Shown here in pieces: positions 6,981-62,497 of a stretch of 64,000 nt of DNA (the first letter of the stretch is position 1; each line of letters starts with the position of its first letter). The notes below the pieces were generated by a model. It was given only the letters and a program-made list of their open reading frames with translations, had not been told where the DNA came from and did not search any database. The stretch spans positions 55,537 to 119,536 of IMG/VR virus record IMGVR_UViG_3300035698_007036; one strand, 5' to 3'. This stretch comes from a virus. Position numbers and translations under genes: made by a program.

Positions 6981-7952
6981 ATGGCGTTAAACGTTGACAC
7001 ACAAGATCTTACGAATTATCCTGGAACTGTTAAGAGGGTTTCTATCGACACAAGTTCCATCGTGCCCGCCGGTTATGAGGGGGACGAGAAAATCGTTATG
7101 ACAGGATCAACTACGGCTTACAGTGACAACACAGCAAGAACTGCTATTCAGTCTCTTTATATAACTGATTTTAAAACAGGTTGGTTAAAGAGTTCTGGTT
7201 TTGCTGGCTCTGGCGGAAAATTCGATTTGGATTTAACTCATTACAGTTTTATGTTGAAGTTCGACAGTACCGCAAGTGGTACTGATAGCTTAGGTTACTA
7301 TCAAGTGGATTTAGATTATGGTACAACGCCCATCTCAGGCGAAGCTATTGCGGCTGATATGGAAACAAAAATTAGGGCCTTGACAATGGCAACTGCAGAT
7401 ACTGGGTTCTCATTGGCTTACAAGAATGCTTCTGTAGAATTTATGAACAGTAAGTTTTATATAATTTCTGGAAGTATTGGTGAGTACTATACTGGTTCTA
7501 ATAGGACATCTGTTAGAGTTAAAGCCGCGAACACTAACGACTGTACATCAGAACTAGGATTTGACATGAATATGAACAGTGAACTAATGGCGGCTGTTTC
7601 TGTTAAAGAGGCTGCTCTAGGTGCTAATTATACATTAGGTACTACACCGCTTACTATAGGTGCTGGTACTGGTGTGGCGGCAGGTGATGCTATGATGATC
7701 ACTGACGGTACCAGTACTGATTATTTTACCGCTCTTACTGGAACAACCGATACATCGGTTGTAGTAGCAGTCAGTGCAACCAATGATTTTGACGGTATAG
7801 CCAGTAGCTATGCCACTGTTTCTGGGACTAAAGTACAGCTTCTTAGAGAGCAGGATCCGGACTCTGGGCCTACATCGTGGTATACAGATATGGATTCCAT
7901 CGCTCGTTGGGCTATTAAAACAATGATAAATCAGATTGATTATAGCTCTTAA
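6981..7952 (+). CDS. Virion structural protein with a shared 'ISGS..S' module (323 aa)
   Basis: AGGAGG precedes the ATG. Residues 145-200 contain FYIISGS followed about 25 residues later by a TSELGF turn. The same layout recurs in the products at 14426 and 22215 and occurs in phage sheath/tail-type structural proteins. The remainder is Ala/Thr/Gly rich and beta-like. A structural role is inferred; no exact family is named. Confidence 0.5.
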   Translation: MALNVDTQDLTNYPGTVKRVSIDTSSIVPAGYEGDEKIVMTGSTTAYSDNTARTAIQSLYITDFKTGWLKSSGFAGSGGKFDLDLTHYSFMLKFDSTASGTDSLGYYQVDLDYGTTPISGEAIAADMETKIRALTMATADTGFSLAYKNASVEFMNSKFYIISGSIGEYYTGSNRTSVRVKAANTNDCTSELGFDMNMNSELMAAVSVKEAALGANYTLGTTPLTIGAGTGVAAGDAMMITDGTSTDYFTALTGTTDTSVVVAVSATNDFDGIASSYATVSGTKVQLLREQDPDSGPTSWYTDMDSIARWAIKTMINQIDYSS

Positions 7953-7962
7953 GGAGAATTAA

Positions 7963-8457
7963 ATGGCTGAGTTTTTTATACGTAATAGTCTTAATCCTAG
8001 TAAAGTTGTTCTTTGCGGTATAACATACCGACAGGTTACACCTAAAGGTAACGACGGCGAAGCTATATGGGTTGTAGAAATAGCTACAAATGAACTGGAT
8101 ATCAATGACGATACTATAGCTTCGGAGTATCTTAATTTAGTAGACCTGTCCTACCTTGAAGATGAGATAACTGAAGCGGTGGTAAGGATTTCTACCAAGG
8201 TAGATTGGTCACCTCTAATAACAGATACTAGAGCTCCGTATGTTGAATCAGTTTTTCCTGCTGAGTATGAAGTTCCATTAGAAACTTCTATAGAGGTGGT
8301 AATAAGGGAGATATTACCAGCGGCTGGTATAGATATTGATTCCATAACTATGAGTGTAGCCGACTTTGATGTGTCAAACGAATTGGAAATAACTGGAGAT
8401 CCTTATGATTACAAAGTAAAATGGTCACCATTCATAAGGGTACAGGACGAATATTAA
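7963..8457 (+). CDS. Tail protein ending in a shortened Ig-like domain (164 aa)
   Basis: An AAGGAG site precedes the ATG. From about residue 88 the product reads APYVESVFPAEYEVPL, then IDIDSITMSV, then YDYKVKWSP. This matches the SbsA-like Ig domain pattern found in two copies in the 890-aa protein at 10715. Here the domain stops where the last strands of a full copy would follow. The next gene is the decarboxylase-like pair, so the 3' end may have been cut when that cargo arrived. That is an inference. Confidence 0.55.
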   Translation: MAEFFIRNSLNPSKVVLCGITYRQVTPKGNDGEAIWVVEIATNELDINDDTIASEYLNLVDLSYLEDEITEAVVRISTKVDWSPLITDTRAPYVESVFPAEYEVPLETSIEVVIREILPAAGIDIDSITMSVADFDVSNELEITGDPYDYKVKWSPFIRVQDEY

Positions 8458-8467
8458 GGAGAGTATT

Positions 8468-8884
8468 ATGATTAAGGCCAAAGAGTTTTGGAAATTTTTA
8501 TGTGAGGGCATGGATTATAGGATATTTTCCGGCGTGCCTTGTTTAGGTTTTGCAACCCTCTACGACTGTATGAGTTCAAAGTTTATGCACTATATTCCAG
8601 CTGTAGATGAGCACTCTGCGTTTGGGATATCTTTAGGTGCTGCCGTAGCAGGCGTTAGAACTGGTGTTTTAGTTGACTGTAATTATCTTGATTTGACTGA
8701 GGATTGGATGAAATTCTGCTTCGAGCATAAAAAGCACGTAGTCATACTAACTAATGGGGAGCCTAAGAATAACGTTTCCAAGTTGGTTTTTGACGGTGAC
8801 TACACTAAACTAGAAAAGTATTTATCGACTAAACGTAAAGGAGAGAAGCCAGCAATAATTGTATTAGAAGGGGTTAGCAAATGA
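8468..8884 (+). CDS. TPP-dependent decarboxylase, pyrimidine-binding subunit (sulfopyruvate/phosphonopyruvate decarboxylase alpha-like)
   Basis: This 138-aa product resembles the N-terminal TPP-binding half of phosphonopyruvate or sulfopyruvate decarboxylases. Residues 21-28 read SGVPCLGF, where these enzymes have a (T/S)GVPxS/G motif. DEH at 47-49 places a glutamate (E48) where the family has the Glu that activates the thiazolium of the cofactor. The following GISLGAAVAG matches the 'alAaGyala' helix. The usual NSGLGN loop is replaced by NYLDL. The ATGA overlap with the next gene implies co-translation of a two-subunit enzyme. The known reaction decarboxylates sulfopyruvate or phosphonopyruvate to the aldehyde. 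The substrate here is unknown. Confidence 0.65.
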   Translation: MIKAKEFWKFLCEGMDYRIFSGVPCLGFATLYDCMSSKFMHYIPAVDEHSAFGISLGAAVAGVRTGVLVDCNYLDLTEDWMKFCFEHKKHVVILTNGEPKNNVSKLVFDGDYTKLEKYLSTKRKGEKPAIIVLEGVSK

Positions 8885-9471
8885 AAAGGCAACCTGTAAT
8901 TAAAAAATGGTTAAAACTTTTGAAGGAAAATGATGCTGTAATAGTTTCAGGCGAAGGTCTTTCAAAGATAGTTTTTGGATTAGACGATCAAAGAGTTTTT
9001 TATTTTGATAAACTTGGAAGGGCCATACCGTTCAGTATAGGTCTTGCGATGGCAATAAATAAAAGAGTATTTGTCATATGTGAAGATATCGAGTTAATGA
9101 GGAACTTTAGTCTAATGGCCCAAGCAGCATCCAGTAGGTGTGTAAATCTTATTTTTGTGTTTGTGGGCTGTGGCACGCACCAGGATTCTGGTGGACAGCC
9201 TAATGTACTAAGCAATATAAAGGCACCCAAAGGGGTTCTGTTTAATATGGGCATAACGGTTTATGATTTTACTCCACATTTTAATGACAAGTATAATAGA
9301 ACGTTGCCTGATGTTTTTGAAAGACTACGAGGACCATCAGTTGCTTTGGTAGACGTAGATCCAGGAGTGACTAATATTACAAAAGTAGACATAGACAAAA
9401 TAAAAGTCGTAGCTAGATTCTCAGAATTTGTTCAGGATTTAGAGCTTGGAACTTCTCTGTTTTTACCTTAA
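8881..9471 (+). CDS. TPP-dependent decarboxylase, diphosphate-binding subunit (ComE/phosphonopyruvate decarboxylase C-terminal-like)
   Basis: This 196-aa product matches the C-terminal TPP domain. It has LGRAIPFSIGLAMAI at 45-59, then an ED pair (68-69) at the position of the GDG motif, and GGQPN (104-108), the family's hallmark GGQPT. The metal-binding pattern GDG...NN is only partly kept: the aspartate is present, but the DNG preceding GGQP is GCG (C97), so the usual Asn ligand is missing. The protein could be a weak or altered enzyme, or a non-catalytic partner. It overlaps the alpha-like gene by 4 bases and sits between tail genes, which is unusual for a metabolic enzyme. Confidence 0.6.
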   Translation: MKRQPVIKKWLKLLKENDAVIVSGEGLSKIVFGLDDQRVFYFDKLGRAIPFSIGLAMAINKRVFVICEDIELMRNFSLMAQAASSRCVNLIFVFVGCGTHQDSGGQPNVLSNIKAPKGVLFNMGITVYDFTPHFNDKYNRTLPDVFERLRGPSVALVDVDPGVTNITKVDIDKIKVVARFSEFVQDLELGTSLFLP

Positions 9472-9482
9472 GGAGGGTATAG

Positions 9483-10703
9483 ATGTCATACGAAAACATA
9501 AAACTTCGAAAATCTAATGTAGCCGTAGTTGATGGTTACTTCTATATGATGGACCAAGACGTAGATGCTTTGATTGTGAAGACAGATGATGGTACCCAGG
9601 CGTTTTCGTATCCATTAAGTAAGACAATATCTAATGCTGTTACCAGTATGGAGTGGGATGGTAGAAATTTTTGGACTTTAGAAACTTCAGATACTAATGA
9701 AGTCACTATCCGTAGATGGTATATAAATAACTACGTCTGTAAACTTAGAGATACTTTTACCTTGTCTCCAGGAGCTCATAATTATGTGTCCGAAGCTATG
9801 ACGGTAGAGCACTATCATAGAGCTTTCACAGGTGACGAGGTGGCAGGCTCTTCCACTTTGAGCATGGATAGCACTAATATGGCCAATGGCGAGACTTTAG
9901 CTTTAGGTCCTAATGGTAGTGGTCAGGTAGAGGAAGTGGTAGTAAACACGACTTCAGCAGGTTCTGTAACCATTTACGGTAATACAGCCTACTCTTATCT
10001 TACAGGGGATCTTGTGTGTTTCTACAAGGACATATGGCTGTTTAATAATTATGATGGCGTGTCCGCTAGTGCTGGAGCTCTATATAAGATAGATGGTTAT
10101 ACCGGTATATACACCACGCATTCCGGTGGTGGTGAGTTTTATAACATAAAGGCCTGTACTTTCTACGATATGTCCTATGTTGATGTTTCTTGGGATAATG
10201 CTATTAGTTACGTTAGAGGGACCAACATGATTTTCTTGAATCCACAAAACCTAGATGATAACTTTGGTTCTATGATAATGGACAATTTAAACGATAATTT
10301 AGCTGACACTATTATAATATACGATGTGGCTGTAGAAGGAGCGAATGTTTATAGATTACAGAGAGAAGCAACTTACTACGGAACGACCGCAACTTTTGCC
10401 GACAGTACTTACAATTACCAGTTAAGTACATTAGACGCATTTATTACAAGCATCTCTTTAAGAGCAGCACCTGCTATTCTCCCTGCCAATAGTGTTAATG
10501 AGTCCGATATAACAGCAGTAGTTAAAGACCAATTTAATCAACCTATAGTTAGTAAAATAGTTTCATTTACTGACGACGACACTAATGGTTACATAACATC
10601 ATCATCTGTTAATACAGATGGTCAAGGTGTCGCTGAGACTAAATACCATGCTGGAAATCAAGCTAGAGAAGTAAAGGTAACTGCAACCGCTCAGCAGAGC
10701 TAA
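9483..10703 (+). CDS. Tail fibre-like protein with C-terminal Ig-like (Big_1-type) domain (406 aa)
   Basis: An AAGGAGG site is followed by ATG. Residues 1-330 form a beta-rich domain. Residues 330-406 read ITAVVKDQFNQPI, then NTDGQGVAET, then VKVTATA, the pattern of invasin/intimin-type bacterial Ig domains found in adhesins and phage fibres. It is a paralogue of the next gene: both start M(S/A)YENI.L and share GTNM(I/V)F and a later YD(V/L)A segment. A role in surface contact is likely. There is no catalytic signature. Confidence 0.6.
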   Translation: MSYENIKLRKSNVAVVDGYFYMMDQDVDALIVKTDDGTQAFSYPLSKTISNAVTSMEWDGRNFWTLETSDTNEVTIRRWYINNYVCKLRDTFTLSPGAHNYVSEAMTVEHYHRAFTGDEVAGSSTLSMDSTNMANGETLALGPNGSGQVEEVVVNTTSAGSVTIYGNTAYSYLTGDLVCFYKDIWLFNNYDGVSASAGALYKIDGYTGIYTTHSGGGEFYNIKACTFYDMSYVDVSWDNAISYVRGTNMIFLNPQNLDDNFGSMIMDNLNDNLADTIIIYDVAVEGANVYRLQREATYYGTTATFADSTYNYQLSTLDAFITSISLRAAPAILPANSVNESDITAVVKDQFNQPIVSKIVSFTDDDTNGYITSSSVNTDGQGVAETKYHAGNQAREVKVTATAQQS

Positions 10704-10714
10704 GGAGTAATTAG

Positions 10715-13387
10715 ATGGCGTATGAAAACATAAGTCTCTCGTATCCTAATTTTTGTATAGCCCCAGTAGTTGGGACTTTTGCTACTATACATGGTACGGA
10801 CACTTTAAGAATAAAAAACGCTACAGGAGCTGTTCAAGGTGACTATTTATTATCGAATAGTATAACAGACAACCTCCTCTGCCTTGAGTATGTGGGGCCG
10901 AGAAATATACCAGCCGTTATTGATGGTTTGACATTTTTTACTATAGAAAAGGCGAGTTCTACATCTGTAAATATAAATAGGTGGGAGCTAGACGCTTCAG
11001 GGATAGCACTTGATCTTGTACAGACCATAACTAAAAGTACATCTGGGGTCAACCACTATAACGCCTTGACCGGGTGTGTTGAATACTATTCACGTAAGTT
11101 TACCTCGGCCGAGGGTAATGGTAGTGATCATATAACTACAACCTCCACAAGTAAGATAGCGGCTGGCATGAGATTATTCTTAGGCCCTAGCAACGACATA
11201 GATAATCTTGGAGAAGGTGAATGGATAACGGTAGACTATGTTTCCGGAAGTGATGTGTATTTCACTACTAATATTACGAAGGATTACCTGATAGATGACC
11301 AGGTAAATTTTTATAAGAACACTTATATTTACAGTTCATTAGGTTACAACGGAGCAGCTGACTATGGAAGTTTGTTTCAGTTAGACGCCAAAACAGGGAA
11401 TTTGTTAAACGTTAATTACGATGGCTTTTATAGAAAAGCACAAGTATGTAAATGGTATCCAGCTACTGGGAACATCCCTACAGTAGTCGGTACCAACATG
11501 GTTTTTGTGTCTCCGTATGATTCTTATCTAAACTGGAGATCCATGTCTTTAAACAATTTGGATGATGACAAAGCCACCACATTGTCAGTCTATGATTTAG
11601 CTTTTGACAGCAGCACAATATATAAGTTAATGCAGCAGATAACAAAGAAAGATGATGACGGTGATGAGGTTACAACTAATTGGTCACCCTATTATAATTA
11701 CCTACAAGATTCACTACTACCCTATACCAATAGTTTACAGATGTATACTGATAAATCGACTATGGTCGGCCAATATGACTCAACAGCCCTGACGGTGGTT
11801 TTAAGGGACCAATTTGGTGTAGGGCTGTTAGGGGTGGCGGTAACAGTAGCACGTGCTGACGGTGACTCTGGGGCCGTTTTAGACCCAATAGACGGACAGC
11901 TTACAACCAATAGCAGTGGGATAGCTCAGGTGGGTTATACCTCTGGAGCTATTTATGGTGGGTTGACCCAATTAACATGTAAGGCTTCTGGTGGATCACC
12001 TTCCACTGGGAGTGCTTGGGTATGGGATTCTACGCATATTATCAGCAAAATAGAGCACGAGAATACAGGCAGGGTGTACCAACTATTTGCCAATTCTACG
12101 TTTGCCGTAGAGTGTCCTACTCTTATGCGACAGGTTTTAAACATTTATACAAGTGACCAGACATTATTTTGTAGGACACGCTTTACTTCTCCAGGAGGAA
12201 ATTGGAGTAATCCCAGTTCCTATTCATCATTGGTGTCTACCTATCTCCCATCCTTAATAGTTGGATCTGGAGACGGCCCACAGGAAAGCTTTTTTGGTTG
12301 GGAAAACAAAGATAATCCAGGCAAGAATCATACTATTAGACAAGTAGTAGATGCAGAAGGGGAAGGCAGAGTGGAGCAGGTAGGGGATGCTGTGGGTTAT
12401 AATGATAGATTAAGACAAGTAGCAGATGCTGAATCCGACTTACAAGTTAGCCAATTGAAAATGAGTCAACATACAAGTTGGATAAACGGAATAGCTTACG
12501 ATGAACTGTTTACAGAGACTGTGATAAATCAGTTCGTTTTTGTTGAGGAGGCTATACCACAATTTTGGAGCGAGAAGAATCCTATAGACACTAATATCTG
12601 GATTAGATTGAGGCCATTTGCTTTCGATTTAAACCCAGCAACTTTGAAGTTTTATGTTAAGGAAGATTCTTATTCCGGAAATACTGGCTACGTAGATATG
12701 GCCCCATATTTAACTGTTACTGTTTTTGATGCTGGCGGCGGAATAGATGGACTTGATGTGACGTGTAATCCACCAAGCGATTTCCACTACAGCGGTATAG
12801 TATACGTCAGAATAGAAGTGTATGATTTAGCCGGAACTCCTAATTTTATTTGGGTCGATTATTGGTTCAGTATTATACCTGATTATAGATTTCCTTATCT
12901 TGAGGGGCTGAATCCAAGTAGAGAACAAGATAATGTTGCGGTTGACACCGATGTTTATTTTGAGATAAAGGACGTAGGGGTAGGCGTAGACATAGACACT
13001 CTTGAGATGACCGTCAATTCAAGGATAGTTGTACCTACTACTATAGTTAAGATAGATGATAATCATTACACAGTGGAGTATGATCCAAGTGATGATTTTC
13101 AATTTGATAAATCAATATTTGTTAATGTAAAGGTTAACGATCTTTCTAACTATGATAATTTGATGAATGACAGTTATAGATTCTATACAGTGTCCAGTGA
13201 CGAAGTATGGTATACCGACTTCTTTCCAGGCGTATGTAAAAGAGGTATGTCGAGATATTCAGATGTAAGAATTGTTTTACTTGATGCTGGTAGCGGAATA
13301 GATAGAGACAGTATAAGAGTTCAAGTTCTAGAAAGGGAGGCCACTAGTAGATTTAATATTGTTCCGATAGTATATAGAATTTCATAA
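10715..13387 (+). CDS. Large tail fibre-like protein with several Ig-like domains (890 aa)
   Basis: The N-terminal 350 residues are paralogous to the preceding gene. Residues 355-425 form a Big_1-type Ig domain (VVLRDQFGVGLLGV, TTNSSGIAQV). Residues 540-585 hold short QV.DAE repeats. From about 605 there are SbsA-type Ig copies, each with a 'D.G.GID.(D)(T/S)' turn: about 605-730, 731-830 and an incomplete third copy at 831-890. The incomplete copy stops shortly before the GIY-YIG gene. Ig domains in phage tails usually bind surface polysaccharides weakly. Confidence 0.6.
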   Translation: MAYENISLSYPNFCIAPVVGTFATIHGTDTLRIKNATGAVQGDYLLSNSITDNLLCLEYVGPRNIPAVIDGLTFFTIEKASSTSVNINRWELDASGIALDLVQTITKSTSGVNHYNALTGCVEYYSRKFTSAEGNGSDHITTTSTSKIAAGMRLFLGPSNDIDNLGEGEWITVDYVSGSDVYFTTNITKDYLIDDQVNFYKNTYIYSSLGYNGAADYGSLFQLDAKTGNLLNVNYDGFYRKAQVCKWYPATGNIPTVVGTNMVFVSPYDSYLNWRSMSLNNLDDDKATTLSVYDLAFDSSTIYKLMQQITKKDDDGDEVTTNWSPYYNYLQDSLLPYTNSLQMYTDKSTMVGQYDSTALTVVLRDQFGVGLLGVAVTVARADGDSGAVLDPIDGQLTTNSSGIAQVGYTSGAIYGGLTQLTCKASGGSPSTGSAWVWDSTHIISKIEHENTGRVYQLFANSTFAVECPTLMRQVLNIYTSDQTLFCRTRFTSPGGNWSNPSSYSSLVSTYLPSLIVGSGDGPQESFFGWENKDNPGKNHTIRQVVDAEGEGRVEQVGDAVGYNDRLRQVADAESDLQVSQLKMSQHTSWINGIAYDELFTETVINQFVFVEEAIPQFWSEKNPIDTNIWIRLRPFAFDLNPATLKFYVKEDSYSGNTGYVDMAPYLTVTVFDAGGGIDGLDVTCNPPSDFHYSGIVYVRIEVYDLAGTPNFIWVDYWFSIIPDYRFPYLEGLNPSREQDNVAVDTDVYFEIKDVGVGVDIDTLEMTVNSRIVVPTTIVKIDDNHYTVEYDPSDDFQFDKSIFVNVKVNDLSNYDNLMNDSYRFYTVSSDEVWYTDFFPGVCKRGMSRYSDVRIVLLDAGSGIDRDSIRVQVLEREATSRFNIVPIVYRIS

Positions 13388-13397
13388 AGGAGGCTTG

Positions 13398-13751
13398 ATG
13401 AAATTTAACATCTATGTGTTTCTGGATCAAAGGGGAAAACCCTATTATGTGGGCAGAACTAATAATTTCAGTAGAAGACGGAAAGAACATTTAGGTGAAA
13501 TAAAGAAGGGAAATAAATTACCGAAATATAATAAAGCCAGTAAGATGATTAAACAAGGTTATGGATTTAAAATGAAGACTATAGCTAAGACATTAGACTT
13601 AAAGGACTCTATGGAGCTAGAGAAATTTTTTATCAAGAGATACAGAGGACTAGGATACACGCTTTATAATCTTACATCTGGCGGAGATGATAAACAGAGG
13701 ATTAAGATAAATTATCCTAAAAAGAAAGTTTACAAAATAAAGAAACGTTAA
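13398..13751 (+). CDS. GIY-YIG family endonuclease, likely homing
   Basis: The N-terminal residues carry the fold signature as IYVFLD...YYVGRTNNFSRRRKEH. YV and YVG stand in for GIY and YIG, with the conserved Arg (R in GRT) and a following basic helix. The catalytic Glu candidate lies near residue 76 (MELEKFFI), and SGGD closes the domain. The full nuclease is about 90 residues, then a basic tail (KKKVYKIKKR). I chose ATG 13398, 4-5 bases after AAGGAGG, over the TTG at 13395. Free-standing GIY-YIG genes are mobile in phages. This one sits between two Ig-domain tail genes. It acts on DNA; its target site is unknown. Confidence 0.85.
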   Translation: MKFNIYVFLDQRGKPYYVGRTNNFSRRRKEHLGEIKKGNKLPKYNKASKMIKQGYGFKMKTIAKTLDLKDSMELEKFFIKRYRGLGYTLYNLTSGGDDKQRIKINYPKKKVYKIKKR

Positions 13752-51069: not shown

Positions 51070-51082
51070 GAGGGGAATGATT

Positions 51083-52366
51083 ATGAATGTAATACAAGGA
51101 AAGAAAATTAAAGTTTTGGCCTATTGCGATAGCCCTACATGTGCTACAGGTTTTGGAACTGTTAGTAGAAACATTTTTGAAGCCCTTTATAAGACAGGAA
51201 AGTACGCTATTGACATTATGGGCATAAATTACTGGGGCGATCCTCATGATTTTCCTTATAGAATTTGGCCTACTGGGACTAATCAGGACCGTGATCCTTA
51301 TGGAAGAAAGAAAGTTTGTAGTATGATACCGCGTATGGAGTATGACGTACTTTTCTTCCTACAAGATACGTTTATCCTCGATTTTATGCCCGAACTACTT
51401 ACTTACCTTGCACAACAAAATAAGACGTTGCCTTCTATTTGTTATTTCCCTATCGATGGTACTCCCAAAGAGGCATGGATTAAAAATATTATAGTAGCGG
51501 ACCATCTAGTAGCCTATTCAGAGTTTGGTAAGGCTGAGTCGGTCCAGGCATGTGAGGATTTGGATCCAGAAAGAGTTAATGTCATACCTCATGGTGTTAA
51601 TGTAACGGACTTCCATCCACTTCCAGAGGAAGAGATTAAACAGTTTAGACGGAAATATTTTGGAGTTCATGCTGACAAGTTCGTCTTTACAAATTTGAAC
51701 AGAAATCAGCAAAGAAAGGACATTCCAAGGACTATTGCAGCGTTCAAAGAGTTCAGAAAAGAAGTACCTGAATCTATACTATATCTACATATGGCCAAAT
51801 CGGATCAGGGTTGGAATCTACCAGAGGTGGTCAAAGCTTATGGTTTTGATATGTCTAAGGATGTTATTTTTCCTGAAAATTTTGGACCTAACCAGGGCTA
51901 CCCACTACCGATTGTTAATATGCTTTACAATTGCAGTGACTGCGTGGTCAGTACCACTCTTGGTGAGGGATGGGGCCTCAGTTGGTCGGAAGCTATGGCC
52001 ACTAAAACCCCTATTATTATGCCAAACAATACTGCATTAGGTGAATGTATTAATGACGAGCGTGGCTGGCTTGTAAAGAGCGGGACTAACCCTTCTTTAA
52101 GCACTGTTCTTCCCCACGATAACGAAATCATTAGACCTCTAGTTGATGTTGAAGATATGGCAAAGACCATGCTTGAGATCTATAGAAATCCACAGGAGGC
52201 TAAACGTAGAGCAGAGAATGCTTACACTTATACTATTACCAACTTGGATTGGCAAGGACCTATTGCTGACAAATGGGTAGATCTATTCAACAAGGTAGCA
52301 ATGTCAGGCCCTAAAGCTATTTCAGAGGGTCAATCAAAAGAACTTATTGGAACGGAGGAGTTTTAA
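51083..52366 (+). CDS. GT4-type glycosyltransferase
   Basis: I chose ATG 51083, 8 bases after AGGAGGGG, over ATG 51077. The GT-B features are a GFGTVSRNIFEAL glycine-rich N-terminal loop, HGVNVTDFHP, VFTNLNRNQQRKDIP as the acceptor/donor linker, and EGWGLSWSEAMATKTPII, the family's ExxxxxxxE region. It transfers sugar from an activated donor. Its location at the head of the glycan cluster suggests an early step or a backbone linkage. Substrates are unknown. Confidence 0.85.
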   Translation: MNVIQGKKIKVLAYCDSPTCATGFGTVSRNIFEALYKTGKYAIDIMGINYWGDPHDFPYRIWPTGTNQDRDPYGRKKVCSMIPRMEYDVLFFLQDTFILDFMPELLTYLAQQNKTLPSICYFPIDGTPKEAWIKNIIVADHLVAYSEFGKAESVQACEDLDPERVNVIPHGVNVTDFHPLPEEEIKQFRRKYFGVHADKFVFTNLNRNQQRKDIPRTIAAFKEFRKEVPESILYLHMAKSDQGWNLPEVVKAYGFDMSKDVIFPENFGPNQGYPLPIVNMLYNCSDCVVSTTLGEGWGLSWSEAMATKTPIIMPNNTALGECINDERGWLVKSGTNPSLSTVLPHDNEIIRPLVDVEDMAKTMLEIYRNPQEAKRRAENAYTYTITNLDWQGPIADKWVDLFNKVAMSGPKAISEGQSKELIGTEEF

Positions 52367-52938
52367 TGAAAGTAAAAATTTTGGGAGAGGCCGGATATGA
52401 GTTCGCCCTCCAAGGCATAGGTAAGAGCTATGGTGTGTCGGATTTTGATAAACTTGAGAGCATAGCACTCAAATTGTGTAAAAAAGATGGTGGTCATAAC
52501 AAGTTTCTTGAATCTATTGTGGTGTGGTTGGATATTAAGGCTCCTAGATATTGGTGGCAGGAGTTTGATACATACCGGGTTGGTACTACTAAACAATCCG
52601 AGAGTACCATTCATACTATTACTAAAAAGCCAATTACACAGTCTGATTTTAGTGCTAGTATACATCCTGATATGATAATACATCTTAATTATCTTATAGA
52701 TCTTTACAAAAGAGAAAAAGGTGAAAGAAGAGATGTAGTCTTTCATATTATAAAAGCTAATTTACCAGAGGGTTACTTACAAAGTCGTATTGTTTGTACT
52801 AATTATAAAGTATTACGTAATATGATTATGCAGAGGAGAAAGCACGTGTTGGTTGATTGGCATGTTTTTATTGACGACCTGATAGTATTAAAACATGGCA
52901 ATTTGTTGGAGAGTGCTTATGGATATAAGGGGGAGTAA
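52366..52938 (+). CDS. ThyX-like (flavin-dependent thymidylate synthase fold) protein
   Basis: A 1-base TAATG overlap joins it to the GT4 gene. A WWQEFDTYR stretch, then KQSEST, then a C-terminal NYKVLRNMIMQRRKH segment follow the order of ThyX: a RHR...NE.S motif, then NYR.L...R. The canonical RHRxxSxNExSxRY is not intact, so activity is doubtful. Known ThyX makes dTMP from dUMP with folate and FAD. Its place between glycosyltransferases is odd. Confidence 0.5.
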   Translation: MKVKILGEAGYEFALQGIGKSYGVSDFDKLESIALKLCKKDGGHNKFLESIVVWLDIKAPRYWWQEFDTYRVGTTKQSESTIHTITKKPITQSDFSASIHPDMIIHLNYLIDLYKREKGERRDVVFHIIKANLPEGYLQSRIVCTNYKVLRNMIMQRRKHVLVDWHVFIDDLIVLKHGNLLESAYGYKGE

Positions 52939-54057
52939 ATGGATATAAAAGGGATAAAATTTGTAGGCCCATTTTTAGATAACTCAGGATATGCACAGGC
53001 AACTAGAGATAACATAATAGCTTTACATATGGCCGGAATACCTCTAACTTTAAAGTCAATGTCCTTTGAGGATGCCAGACCGGATATTGGAGTAGCAGGT
53101 GATATTATAATGCCGCTAATTGACAAAGATATAGACTACAATATAGTTATCATGGAGTGTACTCCTGAATTCTGGGAGAAAAATAGAGAGGACGACAAAA
53201 CTAATGTAGGTTTTGTTTTCTGGGAGACCACTAAATTTCACCCGGATTGGCCCGGTTTCATAAATGAAGGGGTGGATAAACTTTTAGTCAGCTGTGAATG
53301 GAACAAAGAGGTTGCTAAGGATTCGGGCATTAAAGTACCGATAGGTGTGGTACCTAATGCTATAGATGTCAGTAAAAGCAGAAAAGCTAGACCTTTCAAC
53401 GTTGAAGGTGTAGACAATAGTACTTTTATGTTTTATTCTATTTTTCAATTTACAGAGCGTAAGAACCCGCCAGCTCTGATTAAGGCTTATTGGCATGCCT
53501 TTCAGGCCAATGAGGATGTGGCTTTAGTACTTAAGACTTACAGAAATAACTATGACGAAGAACAGAGAAATTTTATTAGAGAAACTTTGCGTCATCTTAA
53601 GAGAGTAACTCCTATGCTTAATTACCCAAAGATTTATTTGATCCCTAATATGCTGTCTAATGACGAGATATTTGGCCTTCATGCAAGGGGGGATTGTTAT
53701 GTTTCTTTTGATAGGGGCGAAGGGTTTGGTCTCAGTCCTTTTATGGCTGGAGCTGCCGAAAAACCCATAATAGTGACAGGTTTTGGCGGGGTCAAAGAGT
53801 ATGCTAAACCTGAAAATAGTTATCTTATCAATTATACTCTGGAGCCTGTGTATGGAATGCCATGGTCGCCTTGGTATAGAGGTGATCAACTATGGGCGTA
53901 TCCAGATGTAAAACATGGAGCGGATTTAATGATGCATGTTTATAATAATAGAGAAGAAGCAGTAGGTAAAGGTAAACTTCTTGGCAAGTATATAAAGGAA
54001 GACTTTAACTTTGATACAATAGGTAAAAGACTAATAAAAGAATTGGAGGCTATTTAA
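52939..54057 (+). CDS. GT4-type glycosyltransferase
   Basis: It begins immediately after the ThyX-like stop with GGGGGAG upstream. GT-B traits: SGYAQATRDNI at the N-terminus, VGFVFWETTKF, IGVVPNAID, FMFYSIFQFTERKNPPALIKAY, and the donor-site segment SFDRGEGFGLSPFMAGAAEKPII. At 372 residues it is typical for the family. It is not a close duplicate of the GT4 at 51083. Confidence 0.8.
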   Translation: MDIKGIKFVGPFLDNSGYAQATRDNIIALHMAGIPLTLKSMSFEDARPDIGVAGDIIMPLIDKDIDYNIVIMECTPEFWEKNREDDKTNVGFVFWETTKFHPDWPGFINEGVDKLLVSCEWNKEVAKDSGIKVPIGVVPNAIDVSKSRKARPFNVEGVDNSTFMFYSIFQFTERKNPPALIKAYWHAFQANEDVALVLKTYRNNYDEEQRNFIRETLRHLKRVTPMLNYPKIYLIPNMLSNDEIFGLHARGDCYVSFDRGEGFGLSPFMAGAAEKPIIVTGFGGVKEYAKPENSYLINYTLEPVYGMPWSPWYRGDQLWAYPDVKHGADLMMHVYNNREEAVGKGKLLGKYIKEDFNFDTIGKRLIKELEAI

Positions 54058-54058
54058 T

Positions 54059-54823
54059 ATGAAAACTTTAACTTTCCCGGTTGGATATAGACCTAATTAC
54101 TTGACTAATTTTTTGGGTTATTTAAAGAAATATGATTTGTCTGACTACACAATTATATGTAGTGCGGAGAATTCTCCTGAGTGTTTAAAGATATTAGAAG
54201 ATACCACTCTACCTGTTAAAGTTTTAAAGAAGCCTAATTCTTCTGGCCGTAAATCACACTCAGGTGCCAGAGATAACATGTTTAATGTCCTTAATCATGC
54301 GTTTAGTTTAGGGTCAGACTTCAATGTACATCTCGAAGACGACTTTGTGTTAGCTCCTGATGCATTTCATTTAGCCAATTGGTATCATGAAACTTTTAAG
54401 GATAAACCTTTGACTTATATGAGTTACGGTCTTTTTAATCATGAGAGTAGGGGTACAGACTACGCTGCCTTAGAGACTATTAGTATGTTTGAAGGCCTAG
54501 GTTGGTGTACCTTTAAAGAAGGTTGGGAAGCATGTTATAGTAAGAACTGGTACGATGATACCTATGCTCAAAAACATTTTGGTACTTACGGGTGGGACTG
54601 GGCTGTCTCTGGCTATTTTAGAGAGTTTGGATATAAGGGCATTAGACCCTTGATTGCCAGAACAAACCATGATGGTAGATATAATGGTACATGCTGCACT
54701 GTCGCTCATCATGATAAACATTATGGTAGATTGATGTGGAACCAGACAGAGATAGTTACGGAATTTCATTTACCAGACGCAACCCCTAGAGATGACAAAC
54801 CGGTATTGGAGGCTATATTATGA
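54059..54823 (+). CDS. GT-A type glycosyltransferase (254 aa)
   Basis: The short protein has an N-terminal RPNYLTNFLGYL-type loop and a central HLEDDFVL motif near residue 92. The acidic EDD takes the place of the DxD that holds the metal and nucleotide sugar in GT-A enzymes. A WDWAVSGY segment lies near the likely acceptor site. The closest family may be GNT-I/GT13-like or GT2. Its stop overlaps the next start (ATGA). Confidence 0.65.
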   Translation: MKTLTFPVGYRPNYLTNFLGYLKKYDLSDYTIICSAENSPECLKILEDTTLPVKVLKKPNSSGRKSHSGARDNMFNVLNHAFSLGSDFNVHLEDDFVLAPDAFHLANWYHETFKDKPLTYMSYGLFNHESRGTDYAALETISMFEGLGWCTFKEGWEACYSKNWYDDTYAQKHFGTYGWDWAVSGYFREFGYKGIRPLIARTNHDGRYNGTCCTVAHHDKHYGRLMWNQTEIVTEFHLPDATPRDDKPVLEAIL

Positions 54824-55890
54824 AGATAATGACTGTAGCAGGTACACGACCTGAGTTAATCAGACTTAGTGTCCTTATAAAGAAGTTAGATGGGTTAGTA
54901 GATCATATGTTTATATATACTAATCAGAATTATGACTACAACTTGTCTGGTTTGTTCTTTGAAGAGATGGACATTCGTGAACCGAACTACACTTTGGATT
55001 TCAAGAGTGAGTCTTTTGGTAAGTTTATGGGACAGACCTTTGAACTTCTTGAGATGATTTTTAATACAGACAAGCCTGACAAGATTCTCATACTGGGAGA
55101 CACCAATTCTGGGTTAGTTACCGCTTTGGTGGCTAATAAGCTTAAAATTCCTGTCTATCATATGGAGGCTGGTAATCGTTGTCTGGATGAGCGGGTACCA
55201 GAAGAGTCTAACCGCAGGGTAATTGACACTTTGTCTACTTATAATTTGCCTTACACAGCCAATAGTAAGGAGAATTTAATAAGGGAAGGTTATAACAAGA
55301 ATTTCGTTTTTAAGACGGGCAATCCCATTAACGAGGTTTTAATTAACTATAAAGATAGTATAGATAGTAGTAATATATTAAGTGAGTTAGGCGTAGTAAT
55401 GTACAAATTTGTTCTAGTAACGGCCCATAGGGCGGAGAATGTGGATGATAAACGTTCTTTAATGGATATAGTGGAGGCAATAAATACTATATCGTTAAAG
55501 TATCAGGTTGTGTTTTCTGTACACCCTAGAACAAAAGATAAGTTAGATAAGTCGGGGTTTGTATTTTTAAACAACGTTATACTGAGCAAACCACTAGGCT
55601 TCTTTGACTTTGTTAAGTTGGAGAAGACGGCTAATGTAGTTATCAGTGATAGTGGGACTGTACAAGAAGAATGCTGTATTCTTGGTGTACCTACTATAAC
55701 TATAAGAAGGACTACTGAACGTCAAGAGACCATAGAGTGCGGGTCTAATATATTATCTGGTACAGGTTCCGATAGTATTATAGAGATTTTTAATATGGTT
55801 GTAGACAGAGATTACGCTTGGGTTGCTCCAGAAGACTACACCAAATACCATGTTTCAGATACGGTTACTAATATACTTTTAGGGAGGTAA
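54820..55890 (+). CDS. UDP-GlcNAc 2-epimerase family, FnlC/CapG-type
   Basis: It has GTRPE at the N-terminus, LGDTNS, HMEAGNRC...RVPEESNRRVID, TAHRAENV and SDSGTVQEE, the whole set of WecB-family active-site motifs. The AGNRC.DERVPEE form matches the FnlC/WbjD/CapG subgroup, which acts on the 6-deoxy sugar made by FnlA and FnlB and yields UDP-L-FucNAc. Normal length (356). Together with the enzymes at 62498 and 63484 it completes that pathway. Substrate assignment is inferred from this motif form and from context. Confidence 0.85.
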   Translation: MKIMTVAGTRPELIRLSVLIKKLDGLVDHMFIYTNQNYDYNLSGLFFEEMDIREPNYTLDFKSESFGKFMGQTFELLEMIFNTDKPDKILILGDTNSGLVTALVANKLKIPVYHMEAGNRCLDERVPEESNRRVIDTLSTYNLPYTANSKENLIREGYNKNFVFKTGNPINEVLINYKDSIDSSNILSELGVVMYKFVLVTAHRAENVDDKRSLMDIVEAINTISLKYQVVFSVHPRTKDKLDKSGFVFLNNVILSKPLGFFDFVKLEKTANVVISDSGTVQEECCILGVPTITIRRTTERQETIECGSNILSGTGSDSIIEIFNMVVDRDYAWVAPEDYTKYHVSDTVTNILLGR

Positions 55891-55892
55891 GG

Positions 55893-56459
55893 ATGATTTT
55901 AGAAACGTTAGATTTTACTAGATTTTTCTCTAATACCAGGACAATTTTTTCCGAAAACTTTAGAGATTTAGAAGTATCACAGCTAATGGGCTATGTTGAA
56001 GTACTTGCTGACGCCAACTTCAGATGTTATAAAGCGAATATGCTTGTTATCGCTGAACGAAAGAAGGCCTCCCCTGATGTTAAACTAATAGCGGATATGG
56101 AATGGGTAGCTCGTAGTGTTGGTGAGTATAGGGTGTCATCTAAAGCCCGAATTAACATATTTATTTCTGACGTAATTCCAAAACTAGTTGGGCCACCAAC
56201 AACTAAATGGTCCGATGACGATGTTGTTTACAGTATTGGTGAAATGATGGATCGTCTTTCAATTGAATTTATTAAACGGGAAGACTTCTTAAAAAACAAC
56301 AGAGCTAAACATATGACCGATAGTTCACAAGATTTAAGTGACCGGGTGACACGTTATCTTAAACATAAACTTTATACATTAGGTAGTAGCGGTTACGAAT
56401 GTGTACATGAGCAAAGAACTTACGACCTTGAGGGCATAATGGAGGAGCTGGCCATATAA
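55893..56459 (+). CDS. Hypothetical protein in glycan cluster (188 aa)
   Basis: Its start lies 2 bases after the epimerase stop, with GGGAGG in the overlap region. A SIGEMMDRLSIEFIKRED helix near residue 113 resembles strings in small unknown proteins found next to phage glycosyltransferases. No catalytic motif or transmembrane segment. It is coupled to the next GT by a 1-base overlap. Confidence 0.4.
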   Translation: MILETLDFTRFFSNTRTIFSENFRDLEVSQLMGYVEVLADANFRCYKANMLVIAERKKASPDVKLIADMEWVARSVGEYRVSSKARINIFISDVIPKLVGPPTTKWSDDDVVYSIGEMMDRLSIEFIKREDFLKNNRAKHMTDSSQDLSDRVTRYLKHKLYTLGSSGYECVHEQRTYDLEGIMEELAI

Positions 56460-57292
56460 TGGACCTGATACCCAAAGAACTTCACTTGTATTGGGATAGA
56501 GGTAAGATGTCTAAGTTACAGACATTCACTGTTACTTCTTTTCATAAACTTAATCCTGATTGGAAGATAAATGTTTACGTACCTAAGCAGGCGTACATTG
56601 GTAAAGCTAGATATATCCCCGATTACACAGGAGTAGACCATTTTCCTTCAGTTGAGACTTTAGACTACGTTAACATTCAAATTGTAGACTTGGATGATTA
56701 TGGTATAGACCATAATCTACATAACATATTAAGATCAGATATACTACGTTACCATATATTATATAATGTTGGAGGCGTTTGGTCAGATTTTGACGTGTTG
56801 TGGCTGAAACCTATGGAGCACTTCCGTAATATAGAGTATCATGGAGATACTCCTATAGAAGAAGTGACTACTGTAGTGTCTTTTATTCGTGGTACGGGTG
56901 GGGGGCATAGTATAGGAATTTTAATTCATTGTAAGAATGACCCCTACATGTTGTCTTTGGTGGAAGCTACAAAGAGGTATAAAGGCGGTCATGGTCATGA
57001 AGTATTCGGAGCCATGTTGATAAATGGGCTTTATCCAACATTGAAATCAATACCTTTCACTAATGTTATAGGAGCAAAGTTTGAGACTTACTATCCGTAT
57101 AATATTCACCCTCCTGTACAAACTATTGGGCAACTTTATAATGGACAAAATGTAAGCAATATTGCGGATAACAATGTTATGTGTTTACATTGGTATAATG
57201 GTCATGTATTAAGTAAGCAATACATTAATGGTAATGGGTTCAGTAGAGCCTGTAGTATGACTACTATATTAAAAAATGAGGGGTACATTTAA
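56459..57292 (+). CDS. GT32-type (OCH1-like) glycosyltransferase
   Basis: The classic family run is visible: IPKELHLYWDRG at the start, then SDILRYHILYNVGGVWSDFDV, whose DFD is the DxD motif. At 277 residues it is normal for small bacterial GT32 enzymes, which transfer mannose, galactose or similar. It overlaps the previous gene by 1 base. The acceptor is unknown. Confidence 0.85.
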   Translation: MDLIPKELHLYWDRGKMSKLQTFTVTSFHKLNPDWKINVYVPKQAYIGKARYIPDYTGVDHFPSVETLDYVNIQIVDLDDYGIDHNLHNILRSDILRYHILYNVGGVWSDFDVLWLKPMEHFRNIEYHGDTPIEEVTTVVSFIRGTGGGHSIGILIHCKNDPYMLSLVEATKRYKGGHGHEVFGAMLINGLYPTLKSIPFTNVIGAKFETYYPYNIHPPVQTIGQLYNGQNVSNIADNNVMCLHWYNGHVLSKQYINGNGFSRACSMTTILKNEGYI

Positions 57293-57303
57293 AGGAGATT
57301 ATT

Positions 57304-58143
57304 ATGACTAACGATAAACTAGTAAACGTGTTCTTATTTAAAGCCGCACCACATGAAAATTTTGGAGAGTACTTATGTAAGAAAATTTTAGATAAGATGG
57401 GAATCAAATGTAAACACTATTCTCAAGCTAACCCACCTCCCGCTGGTATTGGTCATATAATGACAGGGATAGGTGGTTTCTTGAATAATAATATTTATTC
57501 TACTTTTTTTGGAAATAAAATAGATAAATGGTATGTGTGGGGAAGTGGTGTTGAGTGTCAACCAGTTCCAGGACAGACTGAGTTACCTGAGAAAGTATTA
57601 AAAGAGAAATGTGTTATTTCTATGTTACGTGGCCCTATGACTAAAGACTATTACAATATAAAAGAAGATATCTTGTTAGCAGACCCAGGTTATTTAGCAT
57701 CATATTTTTTCAAGTTTCCTGAGGAAGATAAGAAGAGTGTTTTTATTCAGTTTTACTATGATAAAGTTCCTACAGTCATACCTGATGTGGATGTACATTT
57801 AACAACTCTTTTGAAGGTACGAAGCGGCTCATTTGATTTAGATTTTTTTGAAATTTTGAGAAGCATAAGTAACGCTAGTATAGTTCTAACAGGGTCCATG
57901 CACATTGCTATTGCTGCTCATTCTTACGGAGTACCTTGGGCTATAGTTTCTAAGGAGAATGTGGATGCGTCTAAAGAATGGAAGTGGCAGGATACTACAG
58001 CTTGTATGGGGTTAGACAAAGAGGACTTAAAGATATGTACTGGTCCTGAGGACGGGCTTGTGTGGTACAACAGTGTTAAGGCTAAATTTAAACCTGTTAC
58101 TAAAGAATATCAAGAGAAAATAATAGGAGCATTCCCGTGTTAA
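57304..58143 (+). CDS. Polysaccharide pyruvyltransferase
   Basis: It adds a ketal pyruvate from PEP to a sugar of a polysaccharide. Family traits are ENFGEYLCKKIL at the N-terminus, VWGSGVE, LRGPMTKDY, LLADPGYLAS and a final VLTGSMHIAIAAHSYGVPW. At 279 residues it is short for the family (about 300-400), but all these segments are there. An AAGGAG site precedes the ATG. It is often next to FrhB-like genes in polysaccharide loci, as here. Confidence 0.85.
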   Translation: MTNDKLVNVFLFKAAPHENFGEYLCKKILDKMGIKCKHYSQANPPPAGIGHIMTGIGGFLNNNIYSTFFGNKIDKWYVWGSGVECQPVPGQTELPEKVLKEKCVISMLRGPMTKDYYNIKEDILLADPGYLASYFFKFPEEDKKSVFIQFYYDKVPTVIPDVDVHLTTLLKVRSGSFDLDFFEILRSISNASIVLTGSMHIAIAAHSYGVPWAIVSKENVDASKEWKWQDTTACMGLDKEDLKICTGPEDGLVWYNSVKAKFKPVTKEYQEKIIGAFPC

Positions 58144-58895
58144 TAAGAAATTATTTAGCGTATTCTTTAAATGATAGTGTTAGATATATGGCCTCAAGTG
58201 GTGGTTTTTGCAAAGAGTTTTTGAGATTCACTCTTGAAAATAAAATATCCGATAAAGTAATTATAACTGTTTTGGGGGAGGGAAGTACAGCTCTAGTCCC
58301 TAAGACAATAGTAACTAATGACGTCGATAAAATAATGTCTACAAAAAGCAATACGATATATGATAAGACTGATCCGCTATCTATTCTGAAAGAATTAGAT
58401 AGCACTCAGAGGTATACATTTGTAGGTTTGCCGTGCCATATCAAACCATTTCAAACATATTGTGAGCGTAACCAGATAAAAGCTATTACTATAAGTTTGT
58501 TTTGTAATCATACTTCTAGTAAGTACTCTAAGAGTGTATTGGATAAACTACATCTTACTGAAGAAGACGTCAAGCATTTTGAATACCGAGGCTCAGGATG
58601 GGCCGGTTCAGTAAAAGTTACTACAGACGCTGGGGAGATAAAACTTGATCACCATGAGTGTTGGAATTATTATATGGCTAATTACTACGCCCCATTAAAC
58701 AAATGTAAGACGTGCATTAAACCTAAAGATGCTGATATTTGTGTCGGCGATGCCTGGATACCGAGGATAATAAACTCTGACAAGGAAGGCACGTGTATAG
58801 TATTATCAATTAATTCAAATGCTGACAAATTAATTAATGAGTGTGCTAATAAAAGATATATATCTCTTGATGTACTTAGAGATTGGAATGATTAA
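58137..58895 (+). CDS. FrhB-like (coenzyme F420 hydrogenase beta-type) protein
   Basis: GTG 58137 overlaps the pyruvyltransferase end, with AGGAG before it. Family traits: SSGGFCKEF, VGLPCHIKPF, LFCNHTSS, YRGSGWAGS and CKTCIKPKDADICVGDAW, where the cysteines would hold an Fe-S cluster. The N-terminal region is shorter than in FrhB (252 versus about 280 or more residues), and there is no separate ferredoxin domain. In bacteria such proteins sit in exopolysaccharide clusters next to pyruvyltransferases. F420 use is not implied. Confidence 0.8.
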   Translation: MLIRNYLAYSLNDSVRYMASSGGFCKEFLRFTLENKISDKVIITVLGEGSTALVPKTIVTNDVDKIMSTKSNTIYDKTDPLSILKELDSTQRYTFVGLPCHIKPFQTYCERNQIKAITISLFCNHTSSKYSKSVLDKLHLTEEDVKHFEYRGSGWAGSVKVTTDAGEIKLDHHECWNYYMANYYAPLNKCKTCIKPKDADICVGDAWIPRIINSDKEGTCIVLSINSNADKLINECANKRYISLDVLRDWND

Positions 58896-58909
58896 GGAGA
58901 AAGTTAAAT

Positions 58910-59170
58910 ATGAAAGGAAAGATAGTAGTACCTACTTTTTATAAAGATAAACATGCAGATAAGTCTGGGATGTGTGCTAGAGGGGCTATTCTATTGCATG
59001 GCCTTAGTGAACTATATAATATTCCTTTATATTACACTGACACACCTACATTTGAAGACGTAGATTTTGCTTTAGTGCATGCTGTCCCTTATCACAATAG
59101 ACCAAAATTGCCATCCGGTTTAGTAGATACAGATCCACGTGTAAAATTAATAGGTTTTTTGAAGATTTAG
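58910..59170 (+). CDS. Glycosyltransferase N-terminal part (frame 0 product of a frameshifted gene)
   Basis: The ATG follows AAGGAG. Translation ends at a TAG just after a run of six T. The N-terminal part reads KIVVPTFYKDK, then GAILLHGLSEL. The reading frame of the C-terminal half is open across this point, so the two halves probably make one GT of about 299 residues. See the slippery site (59155-59161) and the C-terminal half. Alone, this 86-residue product lacks the donor-binding domain. Confidence 0.7.
   Translation: MKGKIVVPTFYKDKHADKSGMCARGAILLHGLSELYNIPLYYTDTPTFEDVDFALVHAVPYHNRPKLPSGLVDTDPRVKLIGFLKI
59155..59161 (+). other. T TTT TTG slippery heptamer, likely -1 frameshift site
   Basis: In the frame of the upstream half the codons are GGT TTT TTG. 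The heptamer T TTT TTG fits the X XXY YYZ rule for -1 slippage. Moving back one base gives GAA GAT TTA, which leads into the C-terminal half. A single T lost from a run of seven would look identical. Confidence 0.55.
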
Positions 59171-59808
59171 AGTGCTGGTATGATGAAGAGTGTGTAGAAA
59201 ATAAACTTTTAGCATTTAAAAGATATGATGCATTGGTTGGCCCGTTTCATGAAACTTTTATTGAATGGTACCCTCAATTTTTACATAAACATATTCATTT
59301 TCCTCATTATTTTGCACCATTTGAAAGATTTGCTGCATTAAATCCATCACCCAATCCTATAATGAAGTGTTTATTATCAGGCAATGTGAATAAGTGGTAT
59401 CCTTTTAGACAATATATTATTGATGAAGCCCCTAAGGGTATTTTTCACTATAGCGGGTCAAATGTAGAATTTGCTGAGTATCCTAAATTTTTAAATAGGT
59501 ACTTTTGTGCTATTGCAACCGGTGCGGCCTCTCATTTAGTCGTTGCAAAATACTTTGAAATACCGGCCGCTGGAACTTTATTGTTAGCCGAGGAAATAGA
59601 TGATGCCATTTTGGTGGGTTTAAAAGCAAATGTTCATTATGTACCAATTACACGGGAGAATGTGATTGAAAAAATAAGAGAGGTTTTAAGAAATCCTGAA
59701 AGATATATAGAAATTAGGGATAGAGCCACTGAATTTGTGCGAAAGAATCATAGTGAACTTAATAGGTTTGAAGAATTTAAGAAGGTATTACAATTTATAG
59801 GAGAATAA
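59161..59808 (+). CDS. Glycosyltransferase C-terminal part (-1 frame)
   Basis: The frame is open from before the T run and has no good start: the first candidate is TTG 59233 without a ribosome binding site. It shows a donor-binding pattern typical of GT1/GT4 C-terminal domains (PF13524-like): KYFEIPAAGTLLLAEE, VPITRENVIEKIREVL, then RNHSELNRFEEF-type end. It probably is read only by frameshift or after restoration of a lost base. The join gives a normal-length enzyme. Alternatively it is a pseudogene remnant. Confidence 0.65.
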   Translation, partial: EDLECWYDEECVENKLLAFKRYDALVGPFHETFIEWYPQFLHKHIHFPHYFAPFERFAALNPSPNPIMKCLLSGNVNKWYPFRQYIIDEAPKGIFHYSGSNVEFAEYPKFLNRYFCAIATGAASHLVVAKYFEIPAAGTLLLAEEIDDAILVGLKANVHYVPITRENVIEKIREVLRNPERYIEIRDRATEFVRKNHSELNRFEEFKKVLQFIGE

Positions 59809-59809
59809 A

Positions 59810-60922
59810 ATGGGAAATGATAAGTTATTGGGGTATCGAATACATGAGTTAAAGAGGTGTACTCGGTGTATTCTACCGGAAACGATGCCCTTTATAGAGT
59901 TTGATTCGGCCGGTGTGTGTAATTATTGTCACAATTACAAGGTAAGACCTAAACCTAAACAGAAAGAAGAGTTGCTCAACATAATCGAGCCTTATCGCCA
60001 CAAAACTGGTAATGACTGTATTGTGCCATTTTCCGGAGGCCGCGATAGTAGTTACGCACTGCACTTAATTGTAAATGAACTTAAGATGAAGCCAATAACC
60101 TATACTTATGATTGGGGGATGACTACTGAGCTTGGTGAACGTAATGCTAGTCATATATGTGCAGAACTTGGCGTAGAAAATATTATGGTTAAATCGGATA
60201 TCTCTCAAAAACGAAAAAATATAGCTATGAATCTTAAAGCTTGGTTAAGGCATCCACATTTAGGCATGATCGTTGTATTAACAGCTGGAGATAAGCATTT
60301 TTTTAAGTATATAGAAACAGTTAAGAAGCAAACATCCATTGATTTAAATCTGTGGGGATTTAATCCGTTAGAGACTACTCATTTTAAGGTAGGTTTTCTT
60401 GGTGTACCTCCAGATTTTAAGCAGGGGGTTTATAGTCACGGTATTTTTAAGCAGTTAAGGTACCAGAGTTTTAGATTTAAAGCCATGTTAGAAAACCCGA
60501 GTTATTTTAATAGCTCATTATGGGACACACTTTCTGGGGAATATTATCGAAGTTTCACTGAAAAGCGTGATTATTACCACATTTTTGACTACTGGCATTG
60601 GGACGAGGAAATAATTAAGGATACACTTGATTCTTACGGTTGGGAACGGGCAAACGATACGAGTACTACGTGGCGAATTGGTGATGGGACAGCTGGTTTT
60701 TATAATTATATTGGTTATACTGTTGCAGGTTTCACTGAACATGACACGTTTAGAAGTAATCAGATTCGAGAAGGTGAAATGACCAGAGAAAGAGCTTTGG
60801 AATTAGTCAAAGATGAGAACAGGCCAAGATATTCAAACATACGTTGGTATCTTGATACTCTTGGAATGGATTTTAATTCAACAATAAAAAGAATTAATGA
60901 AATTCCTAAATTATATAAATAA
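59810..60922 (+). CDS. N-acetyl sugar amidotransferase (WbpG/PseA-like)
   Basis: The family converts an N-acetyl group of a sugar into an amidine with ammonia from a glutaminase. Two zinc CxxC knuckles (CTRC, CNYC) stand near residues 17 and 38. The PP-loop is PFSGGRDSSYAL near residue 73, the ATP-binding site of N-type PP-loop enzymes. Length (370) is normal. The usual HisH/HisF-like glutaminase partner is not in the window. The ATG directly follows AGGAG. It suggests an unusual acetamidino sugar in the glycan. Confidence 0.85.
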   Translation: MGNDKLLGYRIHELKRCTRCILPETMPFIEFDSAGVCNYCHNYKVRPKPKQKEELLNIIEPYRHKTGNDCIVPFSGGRDSSYALHLIVNELKMKPITYTYDWGMTTELGERNASHICAELGVENIMVKSDISQKRKNIAMNLKAWLRHPHLGMIVVLTAGDKHFFKYIETVKKQTSIDLNLWGFNPLETTHFKVGFLGVPPDFKQGVYSHGIFKQLRYQSFRFKAMLENPSYFNSSLWDTLSGEYYRSFTEKRDYYHIFDYWHWDEEIIKDTLDSYGWERANDTSTTWRIGDGTAGFYNYIGYTVAGFTEHDTFRSNQIREGEMTRERALELVKDENRPRYSNIRWYLDTLGMDFNSTIKRINEIPKLYK

Positions 60923-60941
60923 AAATTGGAGGGTTACTATT

Positions 60942-61523: not shown

Positions 61524-61524
61524 C

Positions 61525-62484: not shown

Positions 62485-62497
62485 GAAGGGGAAAATA

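Follow-up and report, generated by a model that had tools for sequence, protein, structure and literature searches.

Why would the tail module of a virus carry two small genes that resemble the two subunits of a ThDP-dependent decarboxylase, and what might their products do there? The question is raised by a stretch of 64,000 nucleotides (the window), which takes up the last 64 kb, at the right, of a virus record 119.5 kb in length (IMG/VR IMGVR_UViG_3300035698_007036, positions 55,537 to 119,536); the end of the record falls within the last ORF. The first gene (8468–8884) codes for a 138-residue α subunit that resembles PYR domains (RhiE/ComD-like), and the second (8881–9471) for a 196-residue β subunit that resembles PP domains (RhiF/ComE-like). 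Both lie on the plus strand, as do the motifs and tail genes located below. The stop codon of α and the start codon of β overlap by four bases (ATGA).

An earlier note on this DNA had described these coupled ORFs together with three hallmarks of ThDP decarboxylases and an altered metal motif, and all of these are present. In α, the SGVP segment spans residues 21–24 (8528–8539) and Glu48 (8609–8611) aligns with the glutamate that activates ThDP. In β, the GGQPN motif (residues 104–108) completes the loop H100-Q-D-S-G-G-Q-P-N108 (9178–9204). The position of the GDG motif is occupied by E68-D69-I70 (9082–9090), which retains the aspartate and has lost both glycines, and Cys97 (9169–9171) replaces the Mg-ligand asparagine of the NG/NN pair.

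Profile searches with both products matched ThDP decarboxylase families. The β subunit gave a full-length match to sulfopyruvate decarboxylase β (TIGR03846, E = 4.4e-11) and a second match to phosphonopyruvate decarboxylase (TIGR03297, E = 6e-8). By itself, α matched weakly (0.0014 to TIGR03297 and 0.002 to TIGR03845). The Pfam family TPP_enzyme_C (PF02775) scored 15.5 bits in the window, below its gathering cut-off of 21.9. The homology is nevertheless firm, because relatives in other phages (L109 and L106, see below) score strongly: the α subunits of L109 and L106 each match TIGR03845 at about 1e-9, and the β subunit of L109 matches TIGR03297 at 2.4e-23 and PF02775 with 40.4 bits, above the same cut-off. 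Profiles built from the phage family found RhiE (1.7e-11) and RhiF (1.4e-7) in the PDB, and weakly AzcB/AzcC (E = 0.0045–0.015). A PHROG search with the pair gave no match.

AlphaFold2 models, computed from 12-row alignments of α and β, point in the same direction. The α model (pLDDT 89, pTM 0.85) has RhiE as its best Foldseek match in the PDB (TMq 0.78–0.81; 9iz3_C, 0.81). For the β model (pLDDT 76, pTM 0.79), AzcB/AzcC is the top match (9U8Q_G, TMq 0.70), and RhiF (9iz4_B) aligns with a TMq of 0.76. This structural likeness, the absence of which the earlier note had named as refuting its proposal, therefore exists. A PYR-like α and a PP-like β encoded by adjacent genes define a two-subunit ThDP decarboxylase fold, and both are found here. 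Since profiles, predicted structures and the family of relatives agree, the pair is a real, distant homologue of split ThDP decarboxylases.

RhiEF and ComDE are heterodimeric ThDP enzymes (PMC12141560). RhiEF, a phosphonopyruvate decarboxylase (PDB 9IZ3/9IZ4; PMC12141560), is the nearest solved relative by sequence profile and one of the two nearest by fold. Like the phage pair, it consists of two small subunits, one PYR-like and one PP-like. RhiEF has a GDG...DN motif and an NSGLG block and binds ThDP, whereas the window pair has EDI...C, and its α subunit lacks NSGLG and about 25 residues. ComDE shares with the phage genes the tandem arrangement of separate α and β genes and the full-length β profile (TIGR03846). 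In contrast to ComDE, the phage pair scores far under the cut-offs, has degraded catalytic motifs, and lies in a tail locus without coenzyme M context. The α-imino acid decarboxylase AzcB/AzcC (PDB 9U8Q-S) and the heterocycle decarboxylase LumK/LumL (PMC12746152) are also two-subunit ThDP enzymes with non-standard substrates; unlike the phage pair, they are functional enzymes in metabolic clusters. AepY, a fused phosphonopyruvate decarboxylase, contains the same domain pair and gave the strongest plasmid match in tblastn (E = 1e-4), but it is a single chain, adjoins the PEP mutase gene aepX and has every motif intact.

The locus is anchored as a tail module by the 3′ end of a tape-measure ORF (1–1084). 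In full, this ORF extends over 8,048 codons (record C1:32474-56620) from a TTG start with no in-frame stop, and it gave nine tape-measure matches among PHROGs (best 1e-69). Tape measures set about 0.15 nm of tail length per residue, so that 8,048 codons suggest a tail longer than 1 μm. The tail of P74-26, at nearly 1 μm, is described as the longest known (PMC10034513). Between the tape measure and the pair lie a conserved 323-residue tail-module gene (6981–7952), which serves as locus marker in relatives, and a 164-residue gene (7963–8457) directly upstream of α. Downstream follow a 406-residue gene (9483–10703) with a C-terminal Ig-like Big_1 domain (E = 8.9e-10) and an 890-residue gene (10715–13387). 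The pair had been placed between Ig-domain tail genes; the tail context and the downstream Ig domain hold, but the upstream 164-residue gene has no match in Pfam. Because most remaining tail-module genes have no family match either, the tail context is based mainly on position. A GIY-YIG nuclease gene lies between tail genes at 13395–13751. The far end of the window (51077–63999) contains a glycan cluster with a WecB-type 2-epimerase (54820–55890) and a GDP-mannose 4,6-dehydratase (61480–62484), both over their NCBIfam cut-offs, a WbuX-like amidotransferase (59810–60922), a PseB/FnlA-like dehydratase (62498–63487), glycosyltransferases and an RmlD-like protein at the contig end. This cluster suggests that the phage produces its own sugar nucleotides.

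To look for the pair in related phages, as the earlier note had proposed, single proteins were of little use. Scans of IMG/VR with α, β or the 323-residue neighbour returned no match because the pair evolves too fast; tblastn against named phages gave no match for β and chance-level matches only for α. Relatives were reached by phylogenetic walking, from the major capsid protein to alignments of neighbouring genes. The capsid protein has at least 178 close relatives in IMG/VR, and the pair occurs in 2 of the 80 that were kept. Capsid relatives (L005–L084) are 81–94% identical among those listed, and the only match among named phages is a remote one to Bacillus phage G (23%); by these comparisons the capsid group is apparently common, with no near isolate among named phages. 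The same protein found no host in 400 genomes of the phylum reached via a Chloroflexi MAG, nor in 399 genomes of the phylum reached via a Clostridia MAG. Alignments of the 323-residue and 406-residue genes led to 25 and 24 loci, respectively, in overlapping sets. Counting the window, the pair was found in 18 distinct records, each time with both genes at this tail locus, and a last scan with the best-preserved β sequences found no further records.

Two arrangements occur. In the window and in L106, L108, L109, L118, L120, L127, L213, L217 and L218, the order is 323-residue gene, 164-residue gene, pair, 406-residue gene. In L107, L110, L112, L116, L117, L223, L226 and L227, the 323-residue gene is followed directly by the pair, then by a 172-residue gene, the 164-residue gene now standing downstream of the pair, and by a 418-residue gene. 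The same tail module also exists without the pair, for example in L113, L119, L121–L126 and L128. By eye, homing-endonuclease-like ORFs were recognized in the pair's gap in three of these (L122:6140-6643, L124:5963-6889, L125:4096-5031). A gene with an HNH-like C-terminus precedes the 323-residue gene in L114 (L114:4075-4974); it is intact in L114/L115 and broken into two ORFs in L113 (L113:4088-4974). The pair itself is without a homing-type domain, and we rejected the idea that it is a homing-type mobile gene, although the same site in other phages holds homing-endonuclease-like ORFs.

With this family in hand, we turned to the question as to whether these proteins could still be enzymes. 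As reference we used 21 α halves and 23 β halves from cellular genomes, in which the motifs are invariant or near-invariant. This set, mostly fused phosphonopyruvate decarboxylases and not the split enzymes, stems from a genome contig scan with patterns from a Bacteroidales AepY and therefore favours fused enzymes. We used it for comparison and not as the source of the capture. On the substrate side, the QNSGxGN motif of α is absent in all 18 phage members, which keep at most single residues of it. Ten conserved α positions (GDEPQH and those following), kept by the cellular phosphonopyruvate decarboxylases, are also deleted in 18 of 18. On the cofactor side, the Mg-ligand asparagine is gone in 15 members and both GDG glycines in 14. 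G-D/E-G together with the asparagine survives only in L109 (GDG...DN), L217 and L218 (both GEG...DN), and the complete Mg-ThDP motif GDG-X(24–27)-N is found in L109 alone; EDI...C of the window does not conform to it. The GSMG segment for the aminopyrimidine has disappeared from 17 members, L217 having GSVG. Other positions are better preserved: the aspartate of GDG is present in 16 of 18 (glutamate in the other two), the catalytic glutamate of α in 12, including Glu48 of the window, and within SGVP, Gly22 is invariant while valine and proline are each kept in 12. His100 of β is peculiar to the window, as the other 17 members have tyrosine. Judged from these motifs, it is unlikely that the window protein retains a functioning Mg-ThDP site, and L109, L217 and L218 may still bind ThDP.

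These losses bear directly on the proposal that the phage edits a phosphonate or sulfonate, which we do not uphold: QNSGxGN and the adjacent substrate-side stretch are gone throughout, 15 of the 18 members no longer have the cofactor motif, and the PEP mutase family PF13714 occurs in none of the 18 records. The last observation agrees with the earlier note, which saw no PEP mutase in the window; the records are fragments, and one could be encoded by the host or by phage DNA outside them. Among the 18 records, the absence of PF13714 led us to reject a PEP-mutase-linked phosphonate pathway. That the pair is a true sulfopyruvate or phosphonopyruvate decarboxylase seems the least probable explanation of all: TIGR03846 and TIGR03297 are its best profiles and the window keeps the HxSGGQP loop, but the scores lie far under the curated cut-offs (β, 43 against 221.5 bits for TIGR03846 and 32 against 312.5 for TIGR03297; α, 18.1 against 147.95 for TIGR03845 and 17.7 against 312.5 for TIGR03297), and the substrate-side block and a PEP mutase are both missing.

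An active ThDP enzyme whose cofactor site is unusual and whose substrate is neither phospho- nor sulfopyruvate, perhaps a 2-oxo or α-imino acid, and which would act on host metabolism or a phage surface glycan, is easier to imagine. Split ThDP pairs such as LumK/LumL accept varied substrates, the top structural match of β is the α-imino acid decarboxylase AzcB/AzcC, and the right end of the window contains a cluster of sugar-nucleotide and glycosyltransferase genes. The catalytic glutamate of 12 members and the G-D/E-G and asparagine residues of L109, L217 and L218 would also fit. We consider such an activity unlikely in view of the widespread loss of the asparagine, the GDG glycines and GSMG, the loss of the QNSG block in every member, and the fact that no pathway partner adjoins the pair in any phage.

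Motif loss does not amount to decay of the genes. Both genes are under purifying selection: dN/dS ratios of related pairs (Nei–Gojobori) are 0.12–0.47 for α and 0.24–0.38 for β, rough values because dS is near saturation, compared with 0.06–0.41 for the neighbouring tail genes. Low ratios extend to the motif-less lineages L116/L117, L118/L120 and L107/L110. The phage proteins have also acquired conserved positions of their own, namely Cys12, Met35, His41, Pro44 and Phe83 in α and Gly24, Gln81, Ser85, Cys87, Tyr100 (17 of 18) and Phe134 in β, which argues for new constraint and not for decay. On the dN/dS values we rejected a pseudogene. A decaying remnant free of selection, as the progressive loss of catalytic motifs might suggest, is very improbable, since both frames are intact in 18 records at 25–60% identity, the ratios are well below 1 and new positions have become conserved.

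The phylogeny is consistent with a single origin. Against 23 cellular sequences, the phage β subunits form one clade with a support of 100/100. On a tree of three tail genes that adjoin the locus, presence of the pair requires 3–4 changes, most simply explained by one gain followed by two losses. L109 comes out as the first branch, and a short one, although the final tree gives this node weak support (87/81; 96/85 with fewer rows). The simplest reading is that an intact enzyme was captured and then lost its motifs stepwise.

The phage tree, on which the pair is gained and lost, would also suit a cargo function among the late genes, with the pair acting outside the virion as a host-interference or counter-defence factor, or as a decoy or sensor for ThDP or 2-oxo acids. 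The pair evolves faster than most of its neighbours and has two placements relative to the 164-residue gene, and the homing-endonuclease-like ORFs that fill the same gap in L122, L124 and L125 indicate that the site accepts cargo. The pair is, however, found at one place only among the records searched with P0002, each time next to the same tail genes, and it has been inherited vertically with these genes over large divergence instead of moving about. We give this function a low probability as well.

With little better than even confidence, we favour the explanation that the pair is a decayed ThDP heterodimer, a non-catalytic pseudoenzyme with a tail-linked role in binding, assembly or structure. 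Profiles, fold and tree show its descent from a split ThDP enzyme, its single capture and its placement in the tail module. The enzyme that an ancestor of this phage group captured once and set into its tail module was a 2-oxoacid decarboxylase of the ComDE/RhiEF/AzcBC type. All members have since lost the substrate-side block, and most of them, including the window, the Mg-ThDP site. The heterodimer appears to have been kept, since the genes always occur together, are usually translationally coupled and are both under purifying selection; the motif losses make it most likely non-catalytic, with catalysis presumably gone in most members. The pair may bind a tail protein or a ligand of host or virion, either in the former cleft between its subunits or at a surface acquired since, and its location suggests that it helps to assemble the tail, serves host contact or is a minor constituent of the tail. 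Against a pseudoenzyme stand the near-complete cofactor motifs of L109 and, with GEG, of L217/L218, as well as the persistence of Glu48 and the β aspartate; some members may therefore still use ThDP or metal. Sister phages have the same tail module without the pair, which means that the tail can do without it. The earlier suggestion that the fold is reused fits better than editing of a small molecule, although the pair would be no more than a putative virion part, as its link to the tail is indicated by gene position only. More tentatively, and possible rather than probable on these sequences, the heterodimer may have become a structural or adhesive element of the very long phage tail, along a series that leads from the near-intact L109 to the motif-less L116/L117.

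The fold and the split architecture of these proteins were already known. The phage family of mostly motif-less pairs in a tail module appears to be new, as no such pair turned up in PHROGs or in the literature searched. These genes also give a warning that profile matches alone are insufficient to list such genes as metabolic (AMG). Because its members range by degrees from an almost intact cofactor site to none at all, under continued selection, the family offers a tractable case in which to study how a metabolic enzyme turns into a viral pseudoenzyme. If the pair is indeed a structural or adhesive part of the tail, the series would be a record of an enzyme turning into a virion component.
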